This document shows positions 16,087 to 63,752 of a stretch of 64,000 nucleotides of DNA, one piece after another. The stretch comes from Blastomonas sp. SL216 (GTDB taxonomy: Bacteria; Pseudomonadota; Alphaproteobacteria; Sphingomonadales; Sphingomonadaceae). Position numbers and translations under genes: made by a program. Location: NCBI GenBank assembly GCA_026625625.1, contig CP113055.1, forward strand, positions 3,145,001 to 3,209,000, read 5' to 3'. The notes beneath the pieces were generated by a model. The model saw only the letters and a list, made by a program, of their open reading frames with translations, searched no databases and was not told where the DNA came from. How positions within the stretch are numbered: position 1 is the stretch's first letter; each line of letters begins with the position of its first letter.

Positions 16087-17304
16087 ATGCGCAAGAGCTT
16101 CCTCTTTACCTCCGAATCGGTCAGCGAAGGCCATCCCGACAAGGTTGCAGACCAGATTTCCGACTCGGTCGTCGATCTGTTCCTGTCCAAGGACCCCTAT
16201 GCGCGCGTCGCCTGCGAAACGCTGACCACCACGCAGCGCGTCGTGCTGGCCGGTGAAATCCGCTGCAAGGGCGTGTACGAAAATGGTGAATGGGCCCCCG
16301 GCGCGCTGGAAGAAATCGAAAAGACCGTCCGCGCGACCGTGAAGCGCATCGGCTACGAGCAGGACGGCTTCCACTGGGAAACCTTCAGCTTCGAAAACCA
16401 CCTGCACGGCCAGTCGGCTGAAATCGCGCAGGGCGTCGATGCCAAGGACAACAAGGACGAAGGCGCCGGCGACCAGGGCATCATGTTCGGCTATGCCTCG
16501 GACGAGACCGAAGACCTGATGCCCGCCACGCTCGACTATTCGCACAAGATTCTCGAGCGCATGGCTGCCGACCGTCACAACAAGGTCGTCGATTTCCTCG
16601 AGCCCGACGCCAAGAGCCAGGTGACGCTCGCCTATGAAGACGAAAAGCCGGTGCGCGCCACCGCTCTGGTCGTCTCCACCCAGCACGCTGCCGACTATTA
16701 CTGGCATGAAGGCCAGGGCGATGCCGACAAGTATCAGAAGCTGTACGACTATGTCGTCGGCGTGATGCACGACGTTCTGCCCAAGGGTTTCATCACCGAC
16801 GAAACCAAGATCTACGTCAACCCGACCGGTCGTTTCGAAATCGGTGGTCCTGACGGCGATGCCGGTGTGACCGGCCGCAAGATCATCGTCGACACCTATG
16901 GCGGCGCTTCGCCCCATGGCGGCGGCGCTTTCTCGGGCAAGGACCCGACCAAGGTCGACCGTTCGGCTGCCTATATCAGCCGCTACATGGCCAAGAACAT
17001 CGTTGCAGCAGGCCTTGCGCGTCGCTGCACCATCCAGCTGTCCTACGCCATCGGTATTGCCGAGCCGCTGTCGCTCTATGTCGACACCCACGGCACCGGA
17101 ACGATCGCCGACGACAAGATCGAGGCGGTTCTGCCGCAGCTCGTGCGTCTGACGCCGCGCGGCATCCGCGAGCATCTGGGCCTCAACAAGCCGATCTATC
17201 AGAAGTCGGCGGCGTACGGTCACTTCGGCCGCAAGCCCGAAGGCGACTTCTTCCCCTGGGAGAAGACCGATCTGGCCGAAAAGCTAAAGGCGGCTCTCGC
17301 CTGA
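16087..17304 (+). CDS. metK: S-adenosylmethionine synthetase
   Basis: The product is 405 aa. It makes SAM from methionine and ATP in the cytoplasm. The family motifs are visible: [14 protein letters not shown] near residue 13, [12 protein letters not shown] near 130, and [19 protein letters not shown] near 280. The start at 16087 ([11 protein letters not shown]) has AGAAGG upstream. Length is slightly above the Escherichia coli enzyme, as is common in alphaproteobacteria. A palindromic operator candidate precedes it and a clear terminator follows, so it is a single-gene unit. Confidence 0.97.
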
Positions 17305-25349: not shown

Positions 25350-26282
25350 TCAGCGCTGCTGATTGCGTGGGCGCGTCCACAGTCCGTCGCGGCTGACCGG
25401 ATCGGGTTGGCCAAGCGCCTGTGCCAGGCTGCGTGCAACCCAGCCGATCTTCTGGCCGCGCGTGGTGATGACCCGGTGGTCCCAGGCCTGCGCTGCGCGC
25501 CTGCGCACCTCGCGGGCGATATCGCCATAAATGCCCGCTGCCGCCAGCACCGCCCAGCGCGCGCGGAACGCAAGCCGCGCCGCGCCGACCCGCGCCGAGG
25601 CTTCGTGCGCCTCTGACCGGTCCGCCAGCCGCTTTGCCAGCGGCACCAGTTGCGGGCGCAGCCACGGCTTCATGTGCTGGCCGGGCGGAATATCCATCTC
25701 GGCCAGCCATTCGACGGGCAGATAGCAGCGGCCGACCGAATCGTCCTCTGACAGGTCGCGCGCGATATTGGCGAGCTGGAAGGCCAGGCCAAGGTCGCAG
25801 GCCCGGTCGAGCGTCTCCTCGTCCTGCGGGTCCACCCCCATGACGATCGCCATCAGCAGGCCGACTGCGCCCGCGACATGATAGCAATATTGGTACAGGT
25901 CGCGCTCGGTCCGGGGGCGCCATTCATCGGCGTCGAGACCAAAGCCCTGGATCACGTCGAAGATGATGCTGCGCGGCAGGCGGCATTCGCTGGCGACCAG
26001 CGCCAGCGCGGCAAAGGCCGGATCGTCGGTCGGTGCGCCCGCCAGGGCGGCATCGGTCTGCGCACGGATATAGGCGACGCGCTCTTTTGCATCGGCGACC
26101 GCGCTCATGCCATGGCCCATGTCCTGCCCATCGGCCAGATCATCGCATTTGCGGCACCAGGCATAGAGCAGCCAGGCCCGCTCGCGGGTCAGCGGATCGA
26201 ACAGCTTCGAGGCCAGCGCAAAGGATTTGGAGCCGCGCGCGATGGAATCGCGGGCATAGGAAACCAGGGCTGGCCTATCCAT
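25350..26282 (-). CDS. crtB: Phytoene synthase (squalene/phytoene synthase family)
   Basis: The product is 310 aa. It condenses two geranylgeranyl diphosphates to phytoene, the first carotenoid step. The first Asp-rich motif is in WCRKCDDLADG near residue 50, and the second in NIARDLSEDDSVGRCYLP near 170. The start at 26282 has AAGGGGGA nine bases upstream; a TTG at 26306 is less likely. The gene follows a LOG-family gene by 24 bases and is about 1.4 kb from crtI on the same strand, with two unrelated genes between. Confidence 0.93.
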   Translation of the reverse strand: MDRPALVSYARDSIARGSKSFALASKLFDPLTRERAWLLYAWCRKCDDLADGQDMGHGMSAVADAKERVAYIRAQTDAALAGAPTDDPAFAALALVASECRLPRSIIFDVIQGFGLDADEWRPRTERDLYQYCYHVAGAVGLLMAIVMGVDPQDEETLDRACDLGLAFQLANIARDLSEDDSVGRCYLPVEWLAEMDIPPGQHMKPWLRPQLVPLAKRLADRSEAHEASARVGAARLAFRARWAVLAAAGIYGDIAREVRRRAAQAWDHRVITTRGQKIGWVARSLAQALGQPDPVSRDGLWTRPRNQQR

Positions 26283-26306
26283 GCTGGCCGATCCCCCTTC
26301 GATCAA

Positions 26307-26900
26307 TCAAAGATCATCCGTGGTCATCGAAAAGATCGACTGGTGCGGGTGATAGGCTTCCATCTTGGCGAGCAACCCGTCGAGCGTATCGTCGACGATC
26401 AGGATATTGGCATGTTGCGGGCGGATGAAGCCGATCTCGATCATGTGCTGGTTAAAGGCGATGAGCTGGTCGTAAAACCCGTTCACGTTGAGCAGCCCCA
26501 CCGGCTTGGCATGATAGCCAAGCTGCGACCAGCTGATCGCCTCCCACAGCTCGTCCATGGTGCCGACGCCGCCGGGCAGAACGATGAAGCCGTCGGACAG
26601 GTCGGTGAACGCCTGCTTGCGGGCATGCATGCCCGGCACGACGTGGAGTTCGGTGCAGCCCTGGTGCGCCACTTCGGGCCGAACCAGCGCTTCGGGGATG
26701 ATGCCGATCACTTCGCCGCCCTGTTCGAGCGCCGAATCTGCGGTCGCGCCCATCAATCCCAGCCGTCCGCCGCCATAGACCACGCCGATCCCGCGCCTGG
26801 CTAGGGTCGCGCCGACCATGCGGGCGGTTTCGATATAGACGGGGTCGGCAGGGGTGGCAGAGCCGCAATAGACGGCCAGACGCTTGAAGGGGGCGGGCAT
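26307..26900 (-). CDS. LOG-family (TIGR00730) nucleoside monophosphate phosphoribohydrolase
   Basis: The product is 197 aa. The family signature PGGVGTMDELWEA is visible near residue 105, with YGGGRLGLMGATAD near 45. Members release a free base, such as a cytokinin or adenine, from its 5'-monophosphate riboside in the cytoplasm; many bacterial copies are simply annotated as Rossmann-fold proteins. The start at 26900 has AGGA upstream, and an upstream ATG at 26957 is unlikely. It ends 24 bases before crtB, so the two may be co-transcribed. Confidence 0.9.
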   Translation of the reverse strand: MPAPFKRLAVYCGSATPADPVYIETARMVGATLARRGIGVVYGGGRLGLMGATADSALEQGGEVIGIIPEALVRPEVAHQGCTELHVVPGMHARKQAFTDLSDGFIVLPGGVGTMDELWEAISWSQLGYHAKPVGLLNVNGFYDQLIAFNQHMIEIGFIRPQHANILIVDDTLDGLLAKMEAYHPHQSIFSMTTDDL

Positions 26901-27005
26901 GATGATTCCTGATGAGGGTGTTGCAAGGTCCATCGCCGGAAATGCGGGGTGGGGCAAGTGCGTTAAATCTTCCCCGAATGGAGCTCGGAATGGATCATGG
27001 CTCGC

Positions 27006-27380
27006 TCACTCCTGCGGCAGACCGTCGGCTATGGCGTAATAATCGCCCTTGTGCGCTGTGAAGATGTGGACGTGCAGCTGCGTGTCGGTCGGCGCATCGA
27101 ACGCGCCCATCGCCACCGCGGTCGAATCGCGGTGCGGCGGGTCCCAGAACAGGAAGCTGCCGCAGGTGCCGCAGAAACCGCGCCGCACCTTGGGGCTGGA
27201 CTGGTACCAGCGCACATGCTCCTCGCCCGAAATGGCAAGGTCGCTGCGCTTGACGTCGGTCGAGGCCCAGTAATGGCCCGACTGCTTGCGGCACTGGCTG
27301 CAGTGGCACGCGTCCGGCCCTTTGAGCGGGGCGGAAACGGTGAAGCGGACTGCGCCGCACAGGCATGATCCGGTGTGCAT
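27006..27380 (-). CDS. GFA-family (glutathione-dependent formaldehyde-activating-like) zinc protein
   Basis: The product is 124 aa. The Cys pattern of the GFA/CENP-V fold is complete: GSCLCGAVRF, CHCSQCRKQSG and GFCGTCGS. Zinc ligation by these Cys is the family norm. Members handle S-hydroxymethylglutathione or other thiol adducts, but most are of unverified function. The start at 27380 was chosen because the glycine-cysteine motif begins just after it; an ATG at 27416 is also possible. A family A repeat lies directly upstream. Confidence 0.9.
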   Translation of the reverse strand: MHTGSCLCGAVRFTVSAPLKGPDACHCSQCRKQSGHYWASTDVKRSDLAISGEEHVRWYQSSPKVRRGFCGTCGSFLFWDPPHRDSTAVAMGAFDAPTDTQLHVHIFTAHKGDYYAIADGLPQE

Positions 27381-27418
27381 GATGGAGGCTCCGCATCGGC
27401 ACGGAAGCGCACCCAAAC

Positions 27419-27544
27419 CCGCTCAGCCTGAGCTTGTCGAAGGCCCCGTGATATCGTCGGCCGGATATAGCCTGCGAGCCTTGTAAAAGGCAAAAGCAAA
27501 CGCGGCTTAGGGCGCGGGGCCTTCGACAGGCTCAGGCTGAGCGG
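27419..27544. repeat. Inverted-repeat element, family A (copy 2)
   Basis: Arms CCGCTCAGCCTGAGCTTGTC (continuing GAAGGCCCC) and GGCCTTCGACAGGCTCAGGC (continuing TGAGCGG) flank about 70 bases between the GFA gene and crtI. The arms match copy 1 almost exactly. A second hairpin-rich stretch (27585-27640) follows, before the crtI stop. Confidence 0.85.
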
Positions 27545-27642
27545 ATGGGGTAAAGGCGACGCTCGACACCGCTTCCCCTCCACCACCGACCTGTGGTCGG
27601 CGGTCCCCCTCCCCGAGAAGAACTCGGGGAGGATTTATGAGC

Positions 27643-29121
27643 TTACAGCATATCCTCCAGCATCAGCGAAGCGGTCGCTTTCGCGCTGCCGACCACGCCG
27701 GGAATGCCTGCGCCCGGATGCGTGCCGGCCCCGACGAAATACATGTTGGGGATGGCATCATCGCGGTTGTGCGTGCGGAAATAGGCGCTCTGCGTCAGCA
27801 GCGGCTCAAGGCTGAAGGCGCTGCCCAGATGCGCGTTGAGATCGTTGCTGAAATCCTGCGGCGTATAGTGGAAGCTGGTGACGATCCGTTCGTGGATGTC
27901 GGGAATCAGCCGATGGCCGATCTCGTCGAGGATCCGCTTTTCGTAGATCGGGCCCATTTCCTTCCAGTCGATCGGCAGCTTGCCCTGATGCGGCACGGGC
28001 GAGAGCACATAGAAGGTGCTGTGCCCCGGAGGCGCCATGCTAGGATCGGTCACGGTCGGGTGGTGGAGGTACAGCGAGAAGTCCTTGGACAGCACGCCAT
28101 GATCGTAAATGTCGTCGAGCAGGCCTTTGTAGCGCGGGCCGAACAGGATCATGTGGTGCGGAATGCCCGGCCAGTCACCCTTGATGCCGAAATGCGCGAC
28201 GAACAGCGAAGGCGAGAATTTCTTGCGCTTCAGGCTCGCGGCGGCGCGCTTGCCCCGGCCCGATTTGCCGAGCAGGTCGCGATAGCTGTGCATGATGTCG
28301 GCATTGCTGGCGACCGCGTCGAAGCTCTCGCGCCAGCCGCTCTTGGTCACCACGCCGGTGACCTTGTCGCCCATGGTCTCGATCTCGGTCACCGGATCAT
28401 TGAGGCGGATGGTGCCGCCTATCCGCTCGAAATGCTTCACCATCCCTGCGATCAGCTTGTTGGTGCCGCCCTTGGCGAACCACACCCCGCCGTCCTTTTC
28501 CAGCTTGTGGATCAGCGCGTAGATCGAGCTGGTCTTCATCGGATTGCCGCCGACCAGCAGCGTGTGGAAGGACAAGGCCTCACGCAGCTTCTCGTTCTTC
28601 ACGAAGGACGAGACGATCGAATAGACCGAGCGCCAGGCCTGATATTTCATCAGCGCGGGCGCGGCCTTGATCATGCTGGCAAAGTCGAGAAACGCCTTGT
28701 GGCCGAGCTTGAGATAGCCCTCGTCATGCACGCCGGCGCTATATTCCAGGAACCGGTCATAGCCCGCGACATCGTCGGGATTGAGCTTCTGAATCTCGGC
28801 GCGCAGGCTGGCCTCGTCGTTCGAATAGTCGAAATTCGTGCCGTCGGGCCAGTTGAGCCGGTAAAAGGGCATCACGGGGACGAGGTCGACATCCTCGCTG
28901 ATATGATGGCCGGTCAGCGCCCACAATTCCTCGAGGCACGGCGGATCGGTGATGACGGTGGGGCCGGCGTCAAAGGTGAAGCCGTCCTTCTCCCAGAAAT
29001 AGGCGCGGCCACCGGGCTTGTCGCGGCTTTCGATGACGGTGGTGGCGATTCCGGCGGATTGCAGGCGGATGGCGAGCGCCAGCCCGCCGAAACCCGACCC
29101 GATAACTGCAGCTTTTTTCAC
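27643..29121 (-). CDS. crtI: Phytoene desaturase (CrtI type)
   Basis: The product is 492 aa. It desaturates phytoene stepwise to neurosporene or lycopene. The N-terminal dinucleotide fold is VIGSGFGGLALAIRLQSAG (residues 6-24), followed by PGGRAYFWEKDGFTFDAGPT. The carotenoid-oxidoreductase C-terminal motif is GAGTHPGAGIPGVVGSAKA. Length is typical. It is on the same strand as crtB but separated from it by two genes and a repeat, so it probably has its own promoter in the 108-base gap upstream. Confidence 0.95.
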   Translation of the reverse strand: MKKAAVIGSGFGGLALAIRLQSAGIATTVIESRDKPGGRAYFWEKDGFTFDAGPTVITDPPCLEELWALTGHHISEDVDLVPVMPFYRLNWPDGTNFDYSNDEASLRAEIQKLNPDDVAGYDRFLEYSAGVHDEGYLKLGHKAFLDFASMIKAAPALMKYQAWRSVYSIVSSFVKNEKLREALSFHTLLVGGNPMKTSSIYALIHKLEKDGGVWFAKGGTNKLIAGMVKHFERIGGTIRLNDPVTEIETMGDKVTGVVTKSGWRESFDAVASNADIMHSYRDLLGKSGRGKRAAASLKRKKFSPSLFVAHFGIKGDWPGIPHHMILFGPRYKGLLDDIYDHGVLSKDFSLYLHHPTVTDPSMAPPGHSTFYVLSPVPHQGKLPIDWKEMGPIYEKRILDEIGHRLIPDIHERIVTSFHYTPQDFSNDLNAHLGSAFSLEPLLTQSAYFRTHNRDDAIPNMYFVGAGTHPGAGIPGVVGSAKATASLMLEDML

Positions 29122-33630: not shown

Positions 33631-34182
33631 ATGCCCAGCCATGCCATCGCCGCCATCGGCAAGCCCATGCAGATCGCTTTCGTGCCCGACGATTTCGATG
33701 CCGCGCTCAGGCACTGGACCCGGAATATGGGGGTGGGGCCGTTCTTCGTGATGGAACGCATCCGGCTGGAGGATGCGCGGTTCATGGGCGCGCCATCGGA
33801 TTGCACCTTCACCATCGCGCTGGCGCAATGGGGCGATGTGCAGATCGAACTGATCCGGCAGGACAATGACGCGCCGTCCATCTATCGCGGCGATTACCGG
33901 CCAGAGGGCGGCGCGATGCACCATATCTGCGTTCTGACCGATGATATCCCGGCGGCGCGTGCCGCGATCGAGGCAGCGGGCGGCCTTGTGCTGGTCGAGG
34001 GCAAGGTGGGGGCTGACGGCGCGGTGCTCTATGCCGATTGCGGCCCTGCCGAAACGCGGCCCAATGCAGGCGCGATCGTCGAGGTGCTGCAACCCGCGAG
34101 CGGCAGCGAAGGCTTGTTCGCGATGATCTCCGACGCTGCGAAGGGTTGGGACGGATCGGACCCGGTTCGGGTTCTGGGGTAA
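33631..34182 (+). CDS. VOC-family (glyoxalase/dioxygenase fold) protein
   Basis: The product is 183 aa. It carries the paired beta-alpha-beta modules of the VOC fold: IGKPMQIAFVPDDFDAALRH at the N terminus and AMHHICVLTDDIPAARAAIE near residue 95. VOC proteins include glyoxalases, extradiol dioxygenases and lactoylglutathione-like enzymes that bind a divalent metal. A possible metal pair is the HH in AMHHIC plus an early Gln/Glu, but the set is not certain. The start at 33631 has GGGGAAAGGA upstream. It is divergent from the Rieske gene and 134 bases before crtD. Confidence 0.85.
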   Translation: MPSHAIAAIGKPMQIAFVPDDFDAALRHWTRNMGVGPFFVMERIRLEDARFMGAPSDCTFTIALAQWGDVQIELIRQDNDAPSIYRGDYRPEGGAMHHICVLTDDIPAARAAIEAAGGLVLVEGKVGADGAVLYADCGPAETRPNAGAIVEVLQPASGSEGLFAMISDAAKGWDGSDPVRVLG

Positions 34183-34226
34183 CCGAAGTCCTTTGCCTGC
34201 GCGCTCATGAGGCTCTGACGCCGCGC

Positions 34227-34268
34227 TGTCCAAATTATCCGACAAACATCTGTCAAACTTTATGGACA
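34227..34268. promoter_or_regulatory. Tandem PpsR/CrtJ-type boxes upstream of crtD
   Basis: Two perfect TGTC-N10-GACA palindromes lie at 34227-34244 and 34251-34268, six bases apart and ending 48 bases before the crtD ATG. This is the pattern of the photosynthesis repressor PpsR/CrtJ (TGT-N12-ACA) and its usual paired arrangement. Control by PpsR is an inference from the motif; no ppsR gene is in the window. Confidence 0.75.
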
Positions 34269-34285
34269 GGTGCTAGCATCGCAGA

Positions 34286-34327
34286 ATGACCCGTTTCTTT
34301 CCCGACTGGCTGACCGATGCGGCATGA
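34286..34327 (+). other. Possible 13-codon upstream ORF overlapping the crtD start
   Basis: ATG 34286 opens a short frame of 13 residues (MTRFFPDWLTDAA) that ends at 34325-34327, just past the crtD start at 34317. crtD has no visible ribosome site of its own, so coupling with this leader is conceivable. It could equally be chance. Confidence 0.3.
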
Positions 34328-35858
34328 ACCGATCATCGTCGTGGGAGCAGGCGTCGGCGGGCTGAGCGCTGCGGCCTTGCTGGCGGCGGCAGGCGAGCCG
34401 GTGCTGGTGGTCGAACGCCAGCCGACGCCGGGGGGCAAGCTGCGCGAAGTGATGGCCGCAGGACGGCCAGTCGATGGCGGGCCGACGGTGTTCACCATGC
34501 GCTGGGTGTTCGAGCGGCTGTTTGCCGATTGCGGCGGGGACATCGACTCGGCGATCCCGCTGACCCCGGCGAGCCTGATCGCGCGCCATGCCTGGGGCCC
34601 TGGCACCCCGTTCGACCTGTTTGCCGATGTGAACGAGAGCGAAGCGGCGATCGGCGATTATTTCGGCGCGCGCGATGCCGCAGGTTTCCGCACCTTCTGC
34701 ACCGAAGCCGCGCGCATCTTCAACGTGCTGCGCAAACCCTATCTAGAGGCCTCAGCGCCCACGCCGCTGTCGCTGGTGACGCGCATCGGCCTCAGGCGTC
34801 TGCCAGAGACGATGGCGATCCGCCCCTATCAGGCGATGTGGAAGGCGCTGGGCCGCCATTTCCACGATCCCCGACTGCAGCAGCTGTTCGGGCGCTATGC
34901 CACCTATTGCGGGTCATCGCCGTTCGTCGCGCCCGCAACGCTGATGCTGATCGCGCATGTCGAACAGGATGGCGTGTGGCTGGCCGATAACGGCATGCAT
35001 TCGATCGCGACGGCCATCGCGGACCTTGCGCGCAGCAATGGCGCGCAGTTCCGCTATGATGCGCCGATTGCCGAGATAGTCACCGAACATGGCCGCGCCG
35101 CCGGCGTGCGGCTTCAATCCGGCGAGGTCATCCGCGGCCGGGCGGTGGTGTTCAACGGCGATCCCGCCGCGCTCAACATCGGGCGGCTGGGCGATGCGGT
35201 GCGCAAGGCGGTGCCCCCGGTGCCGCCCAAGCAGCGCTCCTTGTCGAGCATGACCTGGCTGATGAATGCGAAGACCAGCGGCTTTCCCCTGGTCCGGCAT
35301 AGCGTGTTCTTTTCGAACGATTATCGCGCGGAGTTCGACGCGATCTTCGGGCGCGGCGCGGTGCCCGAAGCGCCGACCATCTATATCTGCGCGCAGGACC
35401 GCGACGACCATTCGGCGCGTGCACCGCCGGGGCCGGAGCGGCTGCAGCTGATCGTGAATGCGCCAGCCAATGGCGATACCTACCAGAGTTCACAGGCGGA
35501 GATCGACCGATGCGAGAGGCAAGTTTTCGGCTTCCTGGAGGCCTGTGGCCTGACGATCGACCATTCGCCGGACAATTCGCAGCTGGTGACCCCGTCGGAT
35601 TACGAGCAACTGTTCCCGGCGACGGGCGGCGCCCTGTACGGCCGGGCGACCCATGGCTGGAAGGCGGCTTTCCAGCGGCCCGGGGCGGCGAGCCGCTTGC
35701 CGGGGCTCTATCTGGCCGGGGGTGGCATTCACCCCGGCGCCGGGATCCCGATGGCGAGCCTCTCCGGCCGCTTGGCGGCAGAGCGGCTGCTTGCGGACCT
35801 GCCTTTGATGCGGTCGTCCCGCCGGGCGGCTATGCCTGGTGGTATATCGACGCGCTGA
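34317..35858 (+). CDS. crtD: Carotenoid 3,4-desaturase (CrtD type)
   Basis: The product is 513 aa. It is a FAD-dependent desaturase of the CrtI superfamily. The N-terminal fold is IIVVGAGVGGLSAAALLAAA, then PTPGGKLREVM and VDGGPTVFTMRWVFE, the form seen in hydroxyneurosporene/methoxyneurosporene desaturases. The C-terminal motif GGGIHPGAGIPMASLSGRLA is intact. An in-frame stop at 34311 forces the start at 34317, where no ribosome site is seen. It overlaps crtC at its 3' end and is preceded by two PpsR-type boxes. The CrtC neighbour supports CrtD over a second CrtI. Confidence 0.9.
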   Translation: MRHEPIIVVGAGVGGLSAAALLAAAGEPVLVVERQPTPGGKLREVMAAGRPVDGGPTVFTMRWVFERLFADCGGDIDSAIPLTPASLIARHAWGPGTPFDLFADVNESEAAIGDYFGARDAAGFRTFCTEAARIFNVLRKPYLEASAPTPLSLVTRIGLRRLPETMAIRPYQAMWKALGRHFHDPRLQQLFGRYATYCGSSPFVAPATLMLIAHVEQDGVWLADNGMHSIATAIADLARSNGAQFRYDAPIAEIVTEHGRAAGVRLQSGEVIRGRAVVFNGDPAALNIGRLGDAVRKAVPPVPPKQRSLSSMTWLMNAKTSGFPLVRHSVFFSNDYRAEFDAIFGRGAVPEAPTIYICAQDRDDHSARAPPGPERLQLIVNAPANGDTYQSSQAEIDRCERQVFGFLEACGLTIDHSPDNSQLVTPSDYEQLFPATGGALYGRATHGWKAAFQRPGAASRLPGLYLAGGGIHPGAGIPMASLSGRLAAERLLADLPLMRSSRRAAMPGGISTR

Positions 35859-36709
35859 GCGACGACGGACGCCACGGCCTCACCATCATCGCCTTTATCG
35901 GCAGCGTCTTCTCGCCATATTATCACTGGTCCGGGCGCGGCAATCCGGACAATCACATCGCGATGAACGTCGCGCTGTACGGCCCGCGCGGCGGCTGGTG
36001 CATGACCGAGCGGGGCAGCAAGCATCTTTCGCGCGATCACGACCATCTCGTCATCGGCCCCAGCGCGATGCACTGGGACGGCACCAGCCTGCGCATCGAC
36101 CTGGAAGAGATCACCGCGCCGATTCCGCGCCGGGTGCGCGGCACGATCCGTGTCTATCCGCACATGATGCCGCAGACCCAATGGCCGCTCGACCTGGCGG
36201 GGAACCATGCCTGGCGACCCATCGCCCCGCGCGCGGCGGTCGAGGTCAATATGGCGAGCCCTTCGCTCAGCTGGCGCGGCGAGGGCTATATCGACAGCAA
36301 TGCCGGGATCGAGCCCCTGGAACGCGGCTTTTCCGACTGGCACTGGTCGCGCGCGCATCTGGGCCGCGATTCGGTGGTGCTTTATGAAGGCCAGCGCCGC
36401 GATGCCAGCCGCTTCGCCATGGGCCTGCGCTTTGCCGAGGACGGCGCGATCAGGGAAGTTGAGCTGCCCCCCGAACGCGTGCTGCCCAAGACTTTGTGGC
36501 GCATGCCGCGCATCACCCGCGCCGATGCCGGAGCTCCGGTCGAGATCCGCCGCACCTGGGAGGACACGCCCTTCTATTCACGCACCGCGCTGAAGACGCG
36601 GCTGTTCGGCGAGAGCGCCGAGGCGGTGCACGAGAGCCTGTCGCTCGACCGGCTGGAAAAGGGGATCGTGAAGCTGATGCTGCCGTTCCGGATGCCAAGG
36701 CGGGGGTGA
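35510..36709 (+). CDS. crtC: Carotenoid 1,2-hydratase (CrtC type), start unclear
   Basis: The conserved part begins near 35804 (FDAVVPPGGYAWWYIDALSD) and runs to 36709, about 300 residues, the usual CrtC length. FIGSVFSPYYHWSGRG and HWSRAHLGRDSVVLYEG fit the family, which adds water to the psi end of neurosporene or lycopene. No ATG, GTG or TTG in this frame lies between 35510 and the conserved start, and the next ATG is inside the conserved region. The 35510 start is only the nearest in-frame ATG; its first 98 residues are read in a second frame over the end of crtD. Rare start codon, frameshift or sequence error are possible. Confidence 0.8.
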   Translation: MREASFRLPGGLWPDDRPFAGQFAAGDPVGLRATVPGDGRRPVRPGDPWLEGGFPAARGGEPLAGALSGRGWHSPRRRDPDGEPLRPLGGRAAACGPAFDAVVPPGGYAWWYIDALSDDGRHGLTIIAFIGSVFSPYYHWSGRGNPDNHIAMNVALYGPRGGWCMTERGSKHLSRDHDHLVIGPSAMHWDGTSLRIDLEEITAPIPRRVRGTIRVYPHMMPQTQWPLDLAGNHAWRPIAPRAAVEVNMASPSLSWRGEGYIDSNAGIEPLERGFSDWHWSRAHLGRDSVVLYEGQRRDASRFAMGLRFAEDGAIREVELPPERVLPKTLWRMPRITRADAGAPVEIRRTWEDTPFYSRTALKTRLFGESAEAVHESLSLDRLEKGIVKLMLPFRMPRRG

Positions 36710-43309: not shown

Positions 43310-44770
43310 TCAATGCGCCATGGCGCGGGCGTAGAGATCGCCATCGGCAGGATAGAAATTGCAGTGGAAGCCGCTGGGCACGCGGAAGGGAATGTGCACC
43401 CGCGCCACCGGGCCAGCAGCGATGTCGCGCGCGTGGAAGATCGCCAGCTCGCTGCCCGGCGCGTTGGCGCGGTGGACCAGGGTCATTGCATAGCCGTCCG
43501 CCTCGCCCTCCGGTCCCGTTATCGCGCCCAGGCGCGGCGCGAAGATCAGCTCGCCTGCTGCTGCCCCCTTGCCGAAATGATAGATGTCCTCCGCCCCCGT
43601 CTCGGTATCGAAGCGCAGCACGGCATCGAGCCCCTCGGCCCGGGCATCGCGCGATTCCAGGTTGATATTGGCAAAGGCCTGGCGCGTCTTGCGCGTCATC
43701 AGCCGGTCGTCGGGGCGCGGAAACTGCAGGTCGCGCTCGTTCAACACCTCTTCGCGCAGCATGTCTGTGTTGGCGTCGAGGTCGATCGTCCAGCGGCGCA
43801 GGCTCTGGCGCGTGCCTGAATGGGTCGCGCGCACCCCGGTTTCGTCGGGGAACAGCGCGGTGCCGTTGGCGGCCGCGACATCTGCGATGATCTTGCCGTC
43901 CTCTTCCCAGACATTGAGCTCGTGGAACATGTGGCGCGGGTCATATTCGAACCAGCGGACAGCATCGGCGCTGCCCCGGCGCGGCATGACGGCCAGCTTG
44001 GACGGGCGGTCGTTGACCCAGGCGGTCATCGGACCCCCGCGCATGAACCGGCCAAGATCGGTGTCGATCGGCAGCACCGGGAACACCACCCAGTTTTCGG
44101 TCACGAAAAACGTGTGCATCAGGCTCATGTGCGGCACGGGGATGATCTGGCTATGGGTCAGCGCGCCGGTGCGGTCGATAATGTCATAGCGGATTTCCGC
44201 AGCGCCCATCGGCCCGTTGATCATCGCGCCGATATTGATCAGCTCGCCGGTCGCATAATCGATCTTGGGATGCGCCGAGAAGGTGGTGGAGATGGTGCCG
44301 CCATAATGCTCTTCGCCCAAAGTGCTCAGATCGCGCGGGTGCATCTCCACCGGCGGCGCGCCTTCCATCAGCGCCAGCAGCTTTCCGCCATGGACGATGA
44401 TATTGGTGTTGGCGGTGTTGTAGCGCTTGCCCTGGACCGAGGGATCGGCGGTCATCGGATTGCCGAACACGCCGAACAACCGCTCGCCTGCGGCCTTTTC
44501 CAGTTCGAACTTCTCGGTCCGCACCCAGCGGTTGCGCATCGAGACACGGCCGTTCTCGATGAAGAAGCCATAGACCATGCCGTCGCCATCGAACCAGTGA
44601 TACTCGTCGCCGCGCGTCGGGTGCAGCGGTTCGGGACCGTTGCGATAGAACACGCCTGCCAGATCATCCGGAATCTCGCCCTCGATCACCAGGTCAGGCG
44701 CATCGGCCTCGAAACGGTTGGGGGCATGGTGCCCGTGCAGGAACGGATGCGGGGGAAAGGGCTTGGCCAT
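43310..44770 (-). CDS. Carotenoid cleavage / lignostilbene-type dioxygenase
   Basis: The product is 486 aa. It is a seven-bladed propeller enzyme that splits a C=C bond using iron held by four His. Family blocks visible are GVFYRNGPEPLHP near residue 40, EYHWFDGDGMVYGF near 60, FSAHPKIDYATGEL near 165, SLMHTFFVTENWVVFP near 220 and HMFHELNVWEEDG near 285. Substrates range from carotenoids to stilbenes and lignin dimers. Position before an acyl-CoA synthetase gene, and downstream of a TonB receptor gene on the same strand, favours a catabolic role over pigment trimming. Confidence 0.92.
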   Translation of the reverse strand: MAKPFPPHPFLHGHHAPNRFEADAPDLVIEGEIPDDLAGVFYRNGPEPLHPTRGDEYHWFDGDGMVYGFFIENGRVSMRNRWVRTEKFELEKAAGERLFGVFGNPMTADPSVQGKRYNTANTNIIVHGGKLLALMEGAPPVEMHPRDLSTLGEEHYGGTISTTFSAHPKIDYATGELINIGAMINGPMGAAEIRYDIIDRTGALTHSQIIPVPHMSLMHTFFVTENWVVFPVLPIDTDLGRFMRGGPMTAWVNDRPSKLAVMPRRGSADAVRWFEYDPRHMFHELNVWEEDGKIIADVAAANGTALFPDETGVRATHSGTRQSLRRWTIDLDANTDMLREEVLNERDLQFPRPDDRLMTRKTRQAFANINLESRDARAEGLDAVLRFDTETGAEDIYHFGKGAAAGELIFAPRLGAITGPEGEADGYAMTLVHRANAPGSELAIFHARDIAAGPVARVHIPFRVPSGFHCNFYPADGDLYARAMAH

Positions 44771-44803
44771 ATCGAAGCTTTTGCGATCCCGTTGGTCGTT
44801 GCA

Positions 44804-44842
44804 GGAAAAAGCCCGCCGCCCCATGCGAAGGACGGCGGGCTG
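44804..44842 (-). terminator. Hairpin terminator after the TonB receptor gene
   Basis: AGCCCGCCG and CGGCGGGCT pair around a 16-base loop. On the minus strand a TTTTT run follows. It lies just past the stop of the receptor gene and ahead of the dioxygenase start. Confidence 0.8.
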
Positions 44843-63453: not shown

Positions 63454-63473
63454 AGGCGCGCCGGAACGGACGA

Positions 63474-63752
63474 TCAGCCGCGCAGGCGGCTTGCCAGCAT
63501 GCGTCTGCGCCTTAGATCGGCGATGTGAACGGGGAAGGACAGCGCCAGCGGCAGCGCGATCAGCGGCCAGTCCGCTCCGGTCAGCGCCGCGCGCAGCGCA
63601 AGGACGATGAACACCGCAGGCCCCAGCGCCAGCGCGACATCGAGCGGCTTGTTGCCGCGCCGCACCAGCCAGGCGAATTCGATTGCCAGCACCGCCAGGA
63701 TCAGGTCCGCCGCATGGCCGCTGGCGAAGAAGCCGGGAATGGCGGCCATCAT
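63474..63752 (-). CDS. Small membrane protein of unknown function
   Basis: The product is 92 aa. Three hydrophobic stretches (AADLILAVLAIEFAWLV, LDVALALGPAVFIVLALRAA, DWPLIALPLALSFPVHIADL) indicate three membrane helices, with an Arg-rich C terminus. The ATG at 63752 overlaps the stop of tspO (ATGA), so it is coupled to it. No family is recognised. Confidence 0.7.
   Translation of the reverse strand: MMAAIPGFFASGHAADLILAVLAIEFAWLVRRGNKPLDVALALGPAVFIVLALRAALTGADWPLIALPLALSFPVHIADLRRRRMLASRLRG

Follow-up and report, generated by a model that had tools for sequence, protein, structure and literature searches.

A probable PpsR/CrtJ operator before crtD-crtC of Blastomonas sp. SL216: two closely spaced palindromes apart from the usual divergent partner gene

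Which regulator acts on the two palindromes standing before the carotenoid genes crtD and crtC of Blastomonas sp. SL216, and is their arrangement the customary one? Blastomonas comprises aerobic anoxygenic phototrophs and is described as a strictly aerobic, bacteriochlorophyll-producing genus (PMC3622956), and PpsR control of crtCD as such is already known from R. sphaeroides, as reported in the relevant part of a ChIP-seq study (PMC4344238). The type of switch is therefore well known, and what appears unusual in the present case is the spacing of the boxes together with their separation from the usual partner gene. Literature search combining Blastomonas and PpsR led to the description of strain AAP53 (PMC3622956), where PpsR boxes, crtD and crtC are unmentioned, this silence being no proof that the boxes are unreported. 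Here, we analysed a window of 64,000 bp (C1:3145001-3209000 of a single-contig 3.86-Mb genome) and compared its crtD promoter with those of related bacteria. Very probably, the crtD-crtC boxes represent a PpsR/CrtJ operator in Blastomonas, with PpsR binding both palindromes and repressing crtDC.

The box pair and its chance expectation

The elements of the locus are as follows:

34227..34244, + strand: PpsR box 1 (distal), TGTCCAAATTATCCGACA; half-sites invariant in 9/9 Blastomonas genomes, interior invariant at 2/10 positions
34245..34250, + strand: gap between the boxes, 6 bp (24 bp start to start); 6 bp in 9/9 Blastomonas genomes
34251..34268, + strand: PpsR box 2 (proximal), TGTCAAACTTTATGGACA; half-sites invariant in 9/9 genomes, interior invariant at 5/10 positions
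34317..35858, + strand: crtD, 1-hydroxycarotenoid 3,4-desaturase; NF045637 703.8 bits, cut-off 580
35510..36709, + strand: crtC reading frame, carotenoid 1,2-hydratase; NF045922 303.3 bits, under the cut-off of 400

The sequence-only reading had placed two perfect TGTC-N10-GACA palindromes six bases apart and 48 bases 5′ of crtD, and all of these coordinates are correct, with 48 bases lying between box 2 and the ATG at 34317. Both boxes match the TGT-N12-ACA palindrome of PpsR/CrtJ operators, with the longer TGTC and GACA halves, and occupy the promoter of a carotenoid operon whose crtD exceeds the NF045637 cut-off. The true start of crtC lies further inside its reading frame, the profile match beginning at residue 126, and this frame gave no Pfam hit. 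The window also contains, at 25350-29121 and 43310-44824, crtI, which exceeds the cut-off of its subfamily model, and two genes that stay under theirs, one crtB-like and one for a cleavage dioxygenase of the carotenoid/lignostilbene type; no strict PpsR box stands beside any of these three.

The strict motif TGTC-N10-GACA occurs three times in the window against a mean of 0.59 in shuffled sequences, only 2 of 100 shuffles reaching three; the third site is at 17069, while relaxed TGT-N12-ACA sites are at 28128, 30203, 56686 and 63524. Across the genome, 55 strict sites stand against 42 for the reversed control and 422 relaxed ones against 359. Since both counts are little above the control, most single sites in the genome are probably chance occurrences, and the strict site at 17069 may be one as well. 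Thus the single motif is mildly enriched, and significance rests on the close pair: simulation of 300 windows produced no two strict sites within 100 bp of each other (0.0005 expected analytically per window), and besides the crtD pair none of the nine genomes of the genus has a strict tandem pair with a gap of 2-16 bp. The simulated windows together with conservation rule out chance origin of this pair. In 9/9 Blastomonas genomes the boxes start at offsets -90 and -66 from the crtD ATG, and all 16 half-site bases (8/8 per box) are invariant, as against 0/30 for the 30 bases just upstream. Half-sites kept perfect in 9/9 genomes while interiors drift bear the mark of selection, not of decay.

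Comparison was extended to 90 distinct crtD upstream regions, obtained from 97 crtD loci after removal of seven with identical 200-bp upstream sequence; the named loci in this set are the best 80 of 567, so that the sample leans towards CrtD of this strain. Within it, the strict N10 box stands in 54/90 regions, and spacers N6-N9 and N11-N16 give 0 or 1 of 90. With looser ends the same 90 regions, their named loci being the best 80 of 567, yield TGT-N12-ACA in 58 loci, TGT-N14-ACA in 22 and TGT-N16-ACA in 19; the latter two look like by-products of the strict box because 42 of their 51 hits start at most 4 bp from it. Among the matches listed, TGTC-N10-GACA precedes crtD in alpha-, beta- and gammaproteobacterial phototrophs. 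Hence the proposal that PpsR controls the crtD promoter gains support from conservation in 9/9 genus genomes and from the same motif before crtD in other phototrophs.

The regulator and its other sites

A PpsR-CrtJ protein is encoded at C1:3219350-3220648 (TIGR02040 378.4 bits, cut-off 275.4), about 10 kb past the window end and about 40 kb downstream of the boxes, and homologues over the cut-off are present in 9/9 genus genomes. The lack of a ppsR homologue, which would have told against the sequence-only reading, is thereby disproved. Both the regulator expected from the boxes and the photosynthesis gene cluster supposed to lie outside the window were found, the latter as bch genes around ppsR and pufLM on the same contig (pufL/M match at C1:2668482-2670146, some 510 kb away from the boxes, and all nine genus genomes have pufLM-type matches). 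Genes bchG, bchF, bchN, acsF, bchP and bchC exceed their NCBIfam cut-offs and tspO is under its own. This organization resembles the split cluster of Blastomonas sp. AAP53, one part of which comprises ppsR, bchG, pucC, bchP and tspO and the other bchIDO-crtF-bchCXYZ-pufBALMC (PMC3622956). Next to ppsR there is a gene for a protein with a B12-binding domain (Pfam), which by position and domain appears to be AerR/PpaA-like.

PpsR itself carries PAS and HTH_8 (Fis-type helix-turn-helix) domains over the Pfam cut-offs, as expected for the PpsR/CrtJ family, and matches solved PpsR chains (best E 3.3e-29), presumably those from R. sphaeroides. Its helix-turn-helix cysteine, Cys430, is kept, a cysteine being aligned here in 18/18 PpsR sequences compared; we take it to be equivalent to C420/C424 of Rhodobacter, the alignment to the solved chain ending before Cys430. 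The partner cysteine of the redox disulfide, which we assume to be C251 in R. sphaeroides PpsR, aligns to Ile261 in one pairwise alignment of low identity, Cys231 being the only other cysteine. Since isoleucine aligns with the partner position, the Rhodobacter redox switch cannot be assumed for Blastomonas PpsR, and the response to oxygen and light in the sequence-only reading is to be taken as no more than possible. For R. capsulatus, the partner cysteine is given as C249 in the cited section of PMC5362033.

Boxes were also recognized at other photosynthesis genes of the genus. Those at bchG and aerR-bchF are strict in 9/9 genomes, and the bchI box matches 7-8 of 8 bases in 7/7 genomes examined. 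The bchC promoter has a pair of weaker boxes, matching 7 and 6 of the 8 bases and 26 bp apart start to start (8-bp gap), in 8/8 genomes examined; sites of 6 of 8 are common across the examined promoters, including those of genes such as tspO and hemA, and the weaker bchC box counts only because it holds the same place in 8/8. Neither pufB (in 9 genomes) nor acsF (in 5) showed a box at 6 of 8 or better.

Among 60 relatives, CrtD and PpsR were found in the same 17. The closest named CrtD loci (among the best 80 of 567) belong to B. natatoria, Sphingomonas (Blastomonas) ursincola and Blastomonas spp. Next in CrtD identity among the matches listed (64-69%) are four Sphingomonas MAGs (L090, L091, L092 and L095), which contain no strict or 7-of-8 box before crtD though PpsR is present; near relatives can therefore do without PpsR control of crtD. 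These four also yielded no divergent crtE/crtF-like gene, and some of them retain an extended -10-like sequence. Absence of PpsR was considered as the cause of box absence and rejected: in a contrast sample of 50 named genomes, of which 16 have a strict box before crtD and 34 do not, all match PpsR, 49 of them over the cut-off.

Promoter, divergent partner and rival explanations

Downstream of the boxes, three further elements need to be taken into account:

34250..34255, + strand: CTGTCA, candidate -35 overlapping box 2, proposed by position, with an 18-bp spacer to TAGCAT
34271..34279, + strand: TGCTAGCAT, candidate extended -10; invariant in 9/9 Blastomonas genomes
34286..34327, + strand: 13-codon upstream ORF; present in 9/9 genomes, ATG invariant

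If TGCTAGCAT is read as an extended -10, box 2 falls on -35 and box 1 near -60, so that the pair probably covers -35 and -60 and not -35 and -10. In 13/45 other box-bearing loci of the best-80-of-567 set, TGnTA follows the box at this same distance. Since a consensus scan of the crtD upstream region found no sigma-70 site, it is conservation that speaks for the overlap of box 2 with -35. Counted from the end of TAGCAT, the upstream ORF has its ATG starting at the seventh base, and its stop codon overlaps the beginning of crtD; the peptide is not conserved among the nine genus genomes. A Shine-Dalgarno-like word before crtD is absent in 9/9 Blastomonas genomes and present in 31/55 other loci, and a leaderless, translationally coupled start at the upstream ORF and crtD is possible.

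On this layout, PpsR would bind both palindromes before crtD; the proximal box probably covers -35 and abuts the conserved extended -10, and bound PpsR would thereby keep RNA polymerase off crtDC. Repression may be relieved through the AerR-like partner and by dark or redox state. For D. shibae, an aerobic phototroph, the section of PMC10890935 concerned describes repression by PpsR in light that does not depend on oxygen. A Porphyrobacter strain with a ppaA insertion overproduces bacteriochlorophyll and carotenoids, as stated in the pertinent part of PMC10674011, and for this reason the sign of the AerR/PpaA-like partner may differ. A close counterpart is bchC of R. capsulatus, likewise equipped with two tandem TGT-N12-ACA palindromes at the promoter of a photosynthesis operon; these span -47..-30 and -21..-4, on -35 and -10 with their starts 26 bp apart, as described in the relevant passage (PMC5362033), whereas the Blastomonas crtD boxes are 24 bp apart and probably sit on -35 and near -60.

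Apart from that, the crtD promoter looks one-directional, unlike the usual control region common to crtD and a divergent crtE- or crtF-like gene. Both gene names are given by domain and place and not by family cut-off, for which reason we speak of crtE/crtF-like genes. The crtF probe, an O-methyltransferase by Pfam, gave no hit in NCBIfam; the crtE probe, a polyprenyl synthetase, reached 148 bits, under the CrtE cut-off of 460. Outside Blastomonas, a divergent crtE/crtF-like gene accompanies 44/45 strict-box loci and is lacking at 21/36 loci without a strict box (best-80-of-567 set). A 7-of-8 box is present in 14 of these 36, and when such boxes are included, a box stands in 57/59 divergent loci against 2/22 non-divergent ones (same best-80-of-567 set). 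Gene order thus explains box presence better than PpsR presence does. In Blastomonas, 0/9 genomes have a divergent crtE/crtF-like gene at crtD (the upstream stretch covered being 254 bp for G002 and 305 bp for G004), and two perfect boxes without such a gene are unusual. The crtF-like gene of the genus resides near bchC in the puf half (here C1:2676042-2677142) and was located in puf-side stretches of 7/9 genus genomes, this strain included, at the same place as in AAP53. In R. sphaeroides, too, a PpsR site has been assigned by ChIP-seq to crtEF and crtCD, but in the corresponding part of that report one site is listed for the two operons (PMC4344238), while in Blastomonas no divergent crtE/crtF-like gene was found at crtD (0/9).

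A further trace of the shared arrangement is GTCAA (TTGAC on the other strand), which follows the box shortly in 35/45 other strict-box loci, L099, L101 and L112 among them, and at exactly 32 bp from the box start (14 bp after the box) in 23/45, against 0-2 of 45 for three control words; all 35 loci have the divergent crtE/crtF-like gene (best-80-of-567 set throughout). GTCAA is probably the -35 of the divergent promoter, in which case both promoters would share the PpsR box. It is absent from the crtD upstream region in 9/9 Blastomonas genomes, and the Blastomonas operator is likely a one-directional descendant of a shared one. The sequence evidence as a whole supports the notion that in a phototroph of a strictly aerobic genus the carotenoid operon is kept under PpsR although it has parted from its usual divergent partner.

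The same findings may be read differently. The boxes could be a decaying relic of the control region once common to crtD and the divergent gene and no longer regulating anything; the lack of that gene and of GTCAA in 9/9 genomes agrees with this, as does the rarity of boxes of 7 of 8 or better in other loci without a divergent partner (2/22), but perfection of both boxes in 9/9 genomes with drifting interiors makes a relic highly improbable, the least credible of the explanations weighed. Hardly better is the chance that the boxes belong to another regulator recognizing TGTC-N10-GACA. The motif is not exclusive to phototrophs, given that strict tandem pairs exist in family genomes without a CrtD match (e.g., G016, G212, G244 and G274); against this, CrtD and PpsR co-occur in the same genomes, the motif recurs at bchG, bchI, bchC and aerR-bchF of the genus, and it precedes crtD in phototrophs of three proteobacterial classes among the matches listed.

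Unlikely, though deserving more attention, is that PpsR binds here mainly as an activator of crtDC, with the second box placed upstream of -35 and not on -10. The conserved TGCTAGCAT, taken as the -10, would indeed put the distal box near -60, and according to the introduction of PMC5362033 the homologue in Rubrivivax is regarded as a repressor and an activator alike. On the very same reading, however, the proximal box overlaps the core promoter, and PpsR is a repressor of bchF in D. shibae in the part of PMC10890935 concerned. Repression of crtDC by PpsR bound to both boxes is most likely.

Inversion beside box 1 and spacing of the boxes

Comparison with other genomes of the genus revealed a rearrangement adjoining the operator:

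34180..34227, strand not applicable: left breakpoint of an inversion of 29.3 kb, as seen against the genus genomes G007, G006 and G001
63454..63495, strand not applicable: right breakpoint of the 29.3-kb inversion, on the side of tspO-bchP-pucC-bchG

The window segment 34.2-63.5 kb is inverted relative to these three genomes, in which both breakpoints could be followed; in two of them the first base of box 1 is where alignment starts again. For G003 and G008 the junction at crtD alone was seen. Within each breakpoint stretch no repeats were found. In G007, G006 and G001 crtDC adjoins the tspO end of tspO-bchP-pucC-bchG. The inversion parted crtDC from the bch cluster in this strain, and the operator stayed with crtDC; on the sequence evidence, PpsR control would persist here away from the remainder of the cluster.

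As to geometry, the sequence-only reading had called the arrangement classical. Tandem palindromes are indeed there, but the classical gap of 7-9 bp is not: the gap is 6 bp in 9/9 Blastomonas genomes (24 bp start to start). Gaps between PpsR palindromes are given as 7-8 bp (PMC2654016) and as 8-9 bp (PMC4452267) in the relevant parts of these papers. In the 81 other crtD loci of the set whose named loci are the best 80 of 567, box pairs show a distance of 26 bp in 30 loci and of 25 bp in 8, with no case of 24 bp, and coding controls contained no box pairs. A second count used 397 family genomes drawn evenly out of a larger group. Outside Blastomonas, 67 of these matched CrtD, and all but G470 were read, giving 66 genomes; this sample partly overlaps the crtD-locus set. 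Here, pairs 24, 25 and 26 bp apart were found in 2, 12 and 11 genomes, respectively, and the 25-bp pairs have the strict box first and a weaker one downstream in 7/12 genomes. The crtD boxes of Blastomonas are thus 2 bp closer than with the commonest, 8-bp gap.

That the 6-bp gap is exclusive to Blastomonas, as suggested by its absence from the strict-box and total crtD loci outside the genus (0/45 and 0/81), was overturned by two family genomes. G207, of a second genus of the family, has two perfect boxes with a 6-bp gap before crtD (G207:C1:1060036-1060077, L186), standing between crtD and a divergent crtF-like gene, and the 24-bp pair before crtD in G260 consists of one perfect and one 7-of-8 box.

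It is tempting to ask what the short gap might do. Tentatively, and with more doubt than confidence, we suggest that once the crtF-like gene had been separated from crtD in the Blastomonas lineage, the control region turned one-directional and the operator was rebuilt as two perfect boxes 6 bp apart. With 8 bp at bchC, one and the same PpsR would then act differently on the two operators, and the carotenoid genes would answer its signal in another way than the bacteriochlorophyll genes. If so, this would be a spacing code like that reported for crtI and pucB of Rubrivivax. In Rubrivivax gelatinosus, tandem PpsR boxes likewise differ in gap between a carotenoid and another photosynthesis promoter, with gaps of 9 and 8 bp at pucB/crtI in the part of the report at issue (PMC4452267), as distinct from 6 bp at crtD and 8 bp at the weaker bchC boxes of Blastomonas. 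The two Blastomonas operators, with 6-bp and 8-bp gaps under one PpsR, make a natural pair in which it can be tested whether spacing decides how the signal is read. Much wider gaps also occur in the family: G016, G244, G274 and G379 (L183, L181, L196 and L203), which are not among the CrtD matches, contain strict pairs with a 13- or 15-bp gap, perhaps the site of another regulator.
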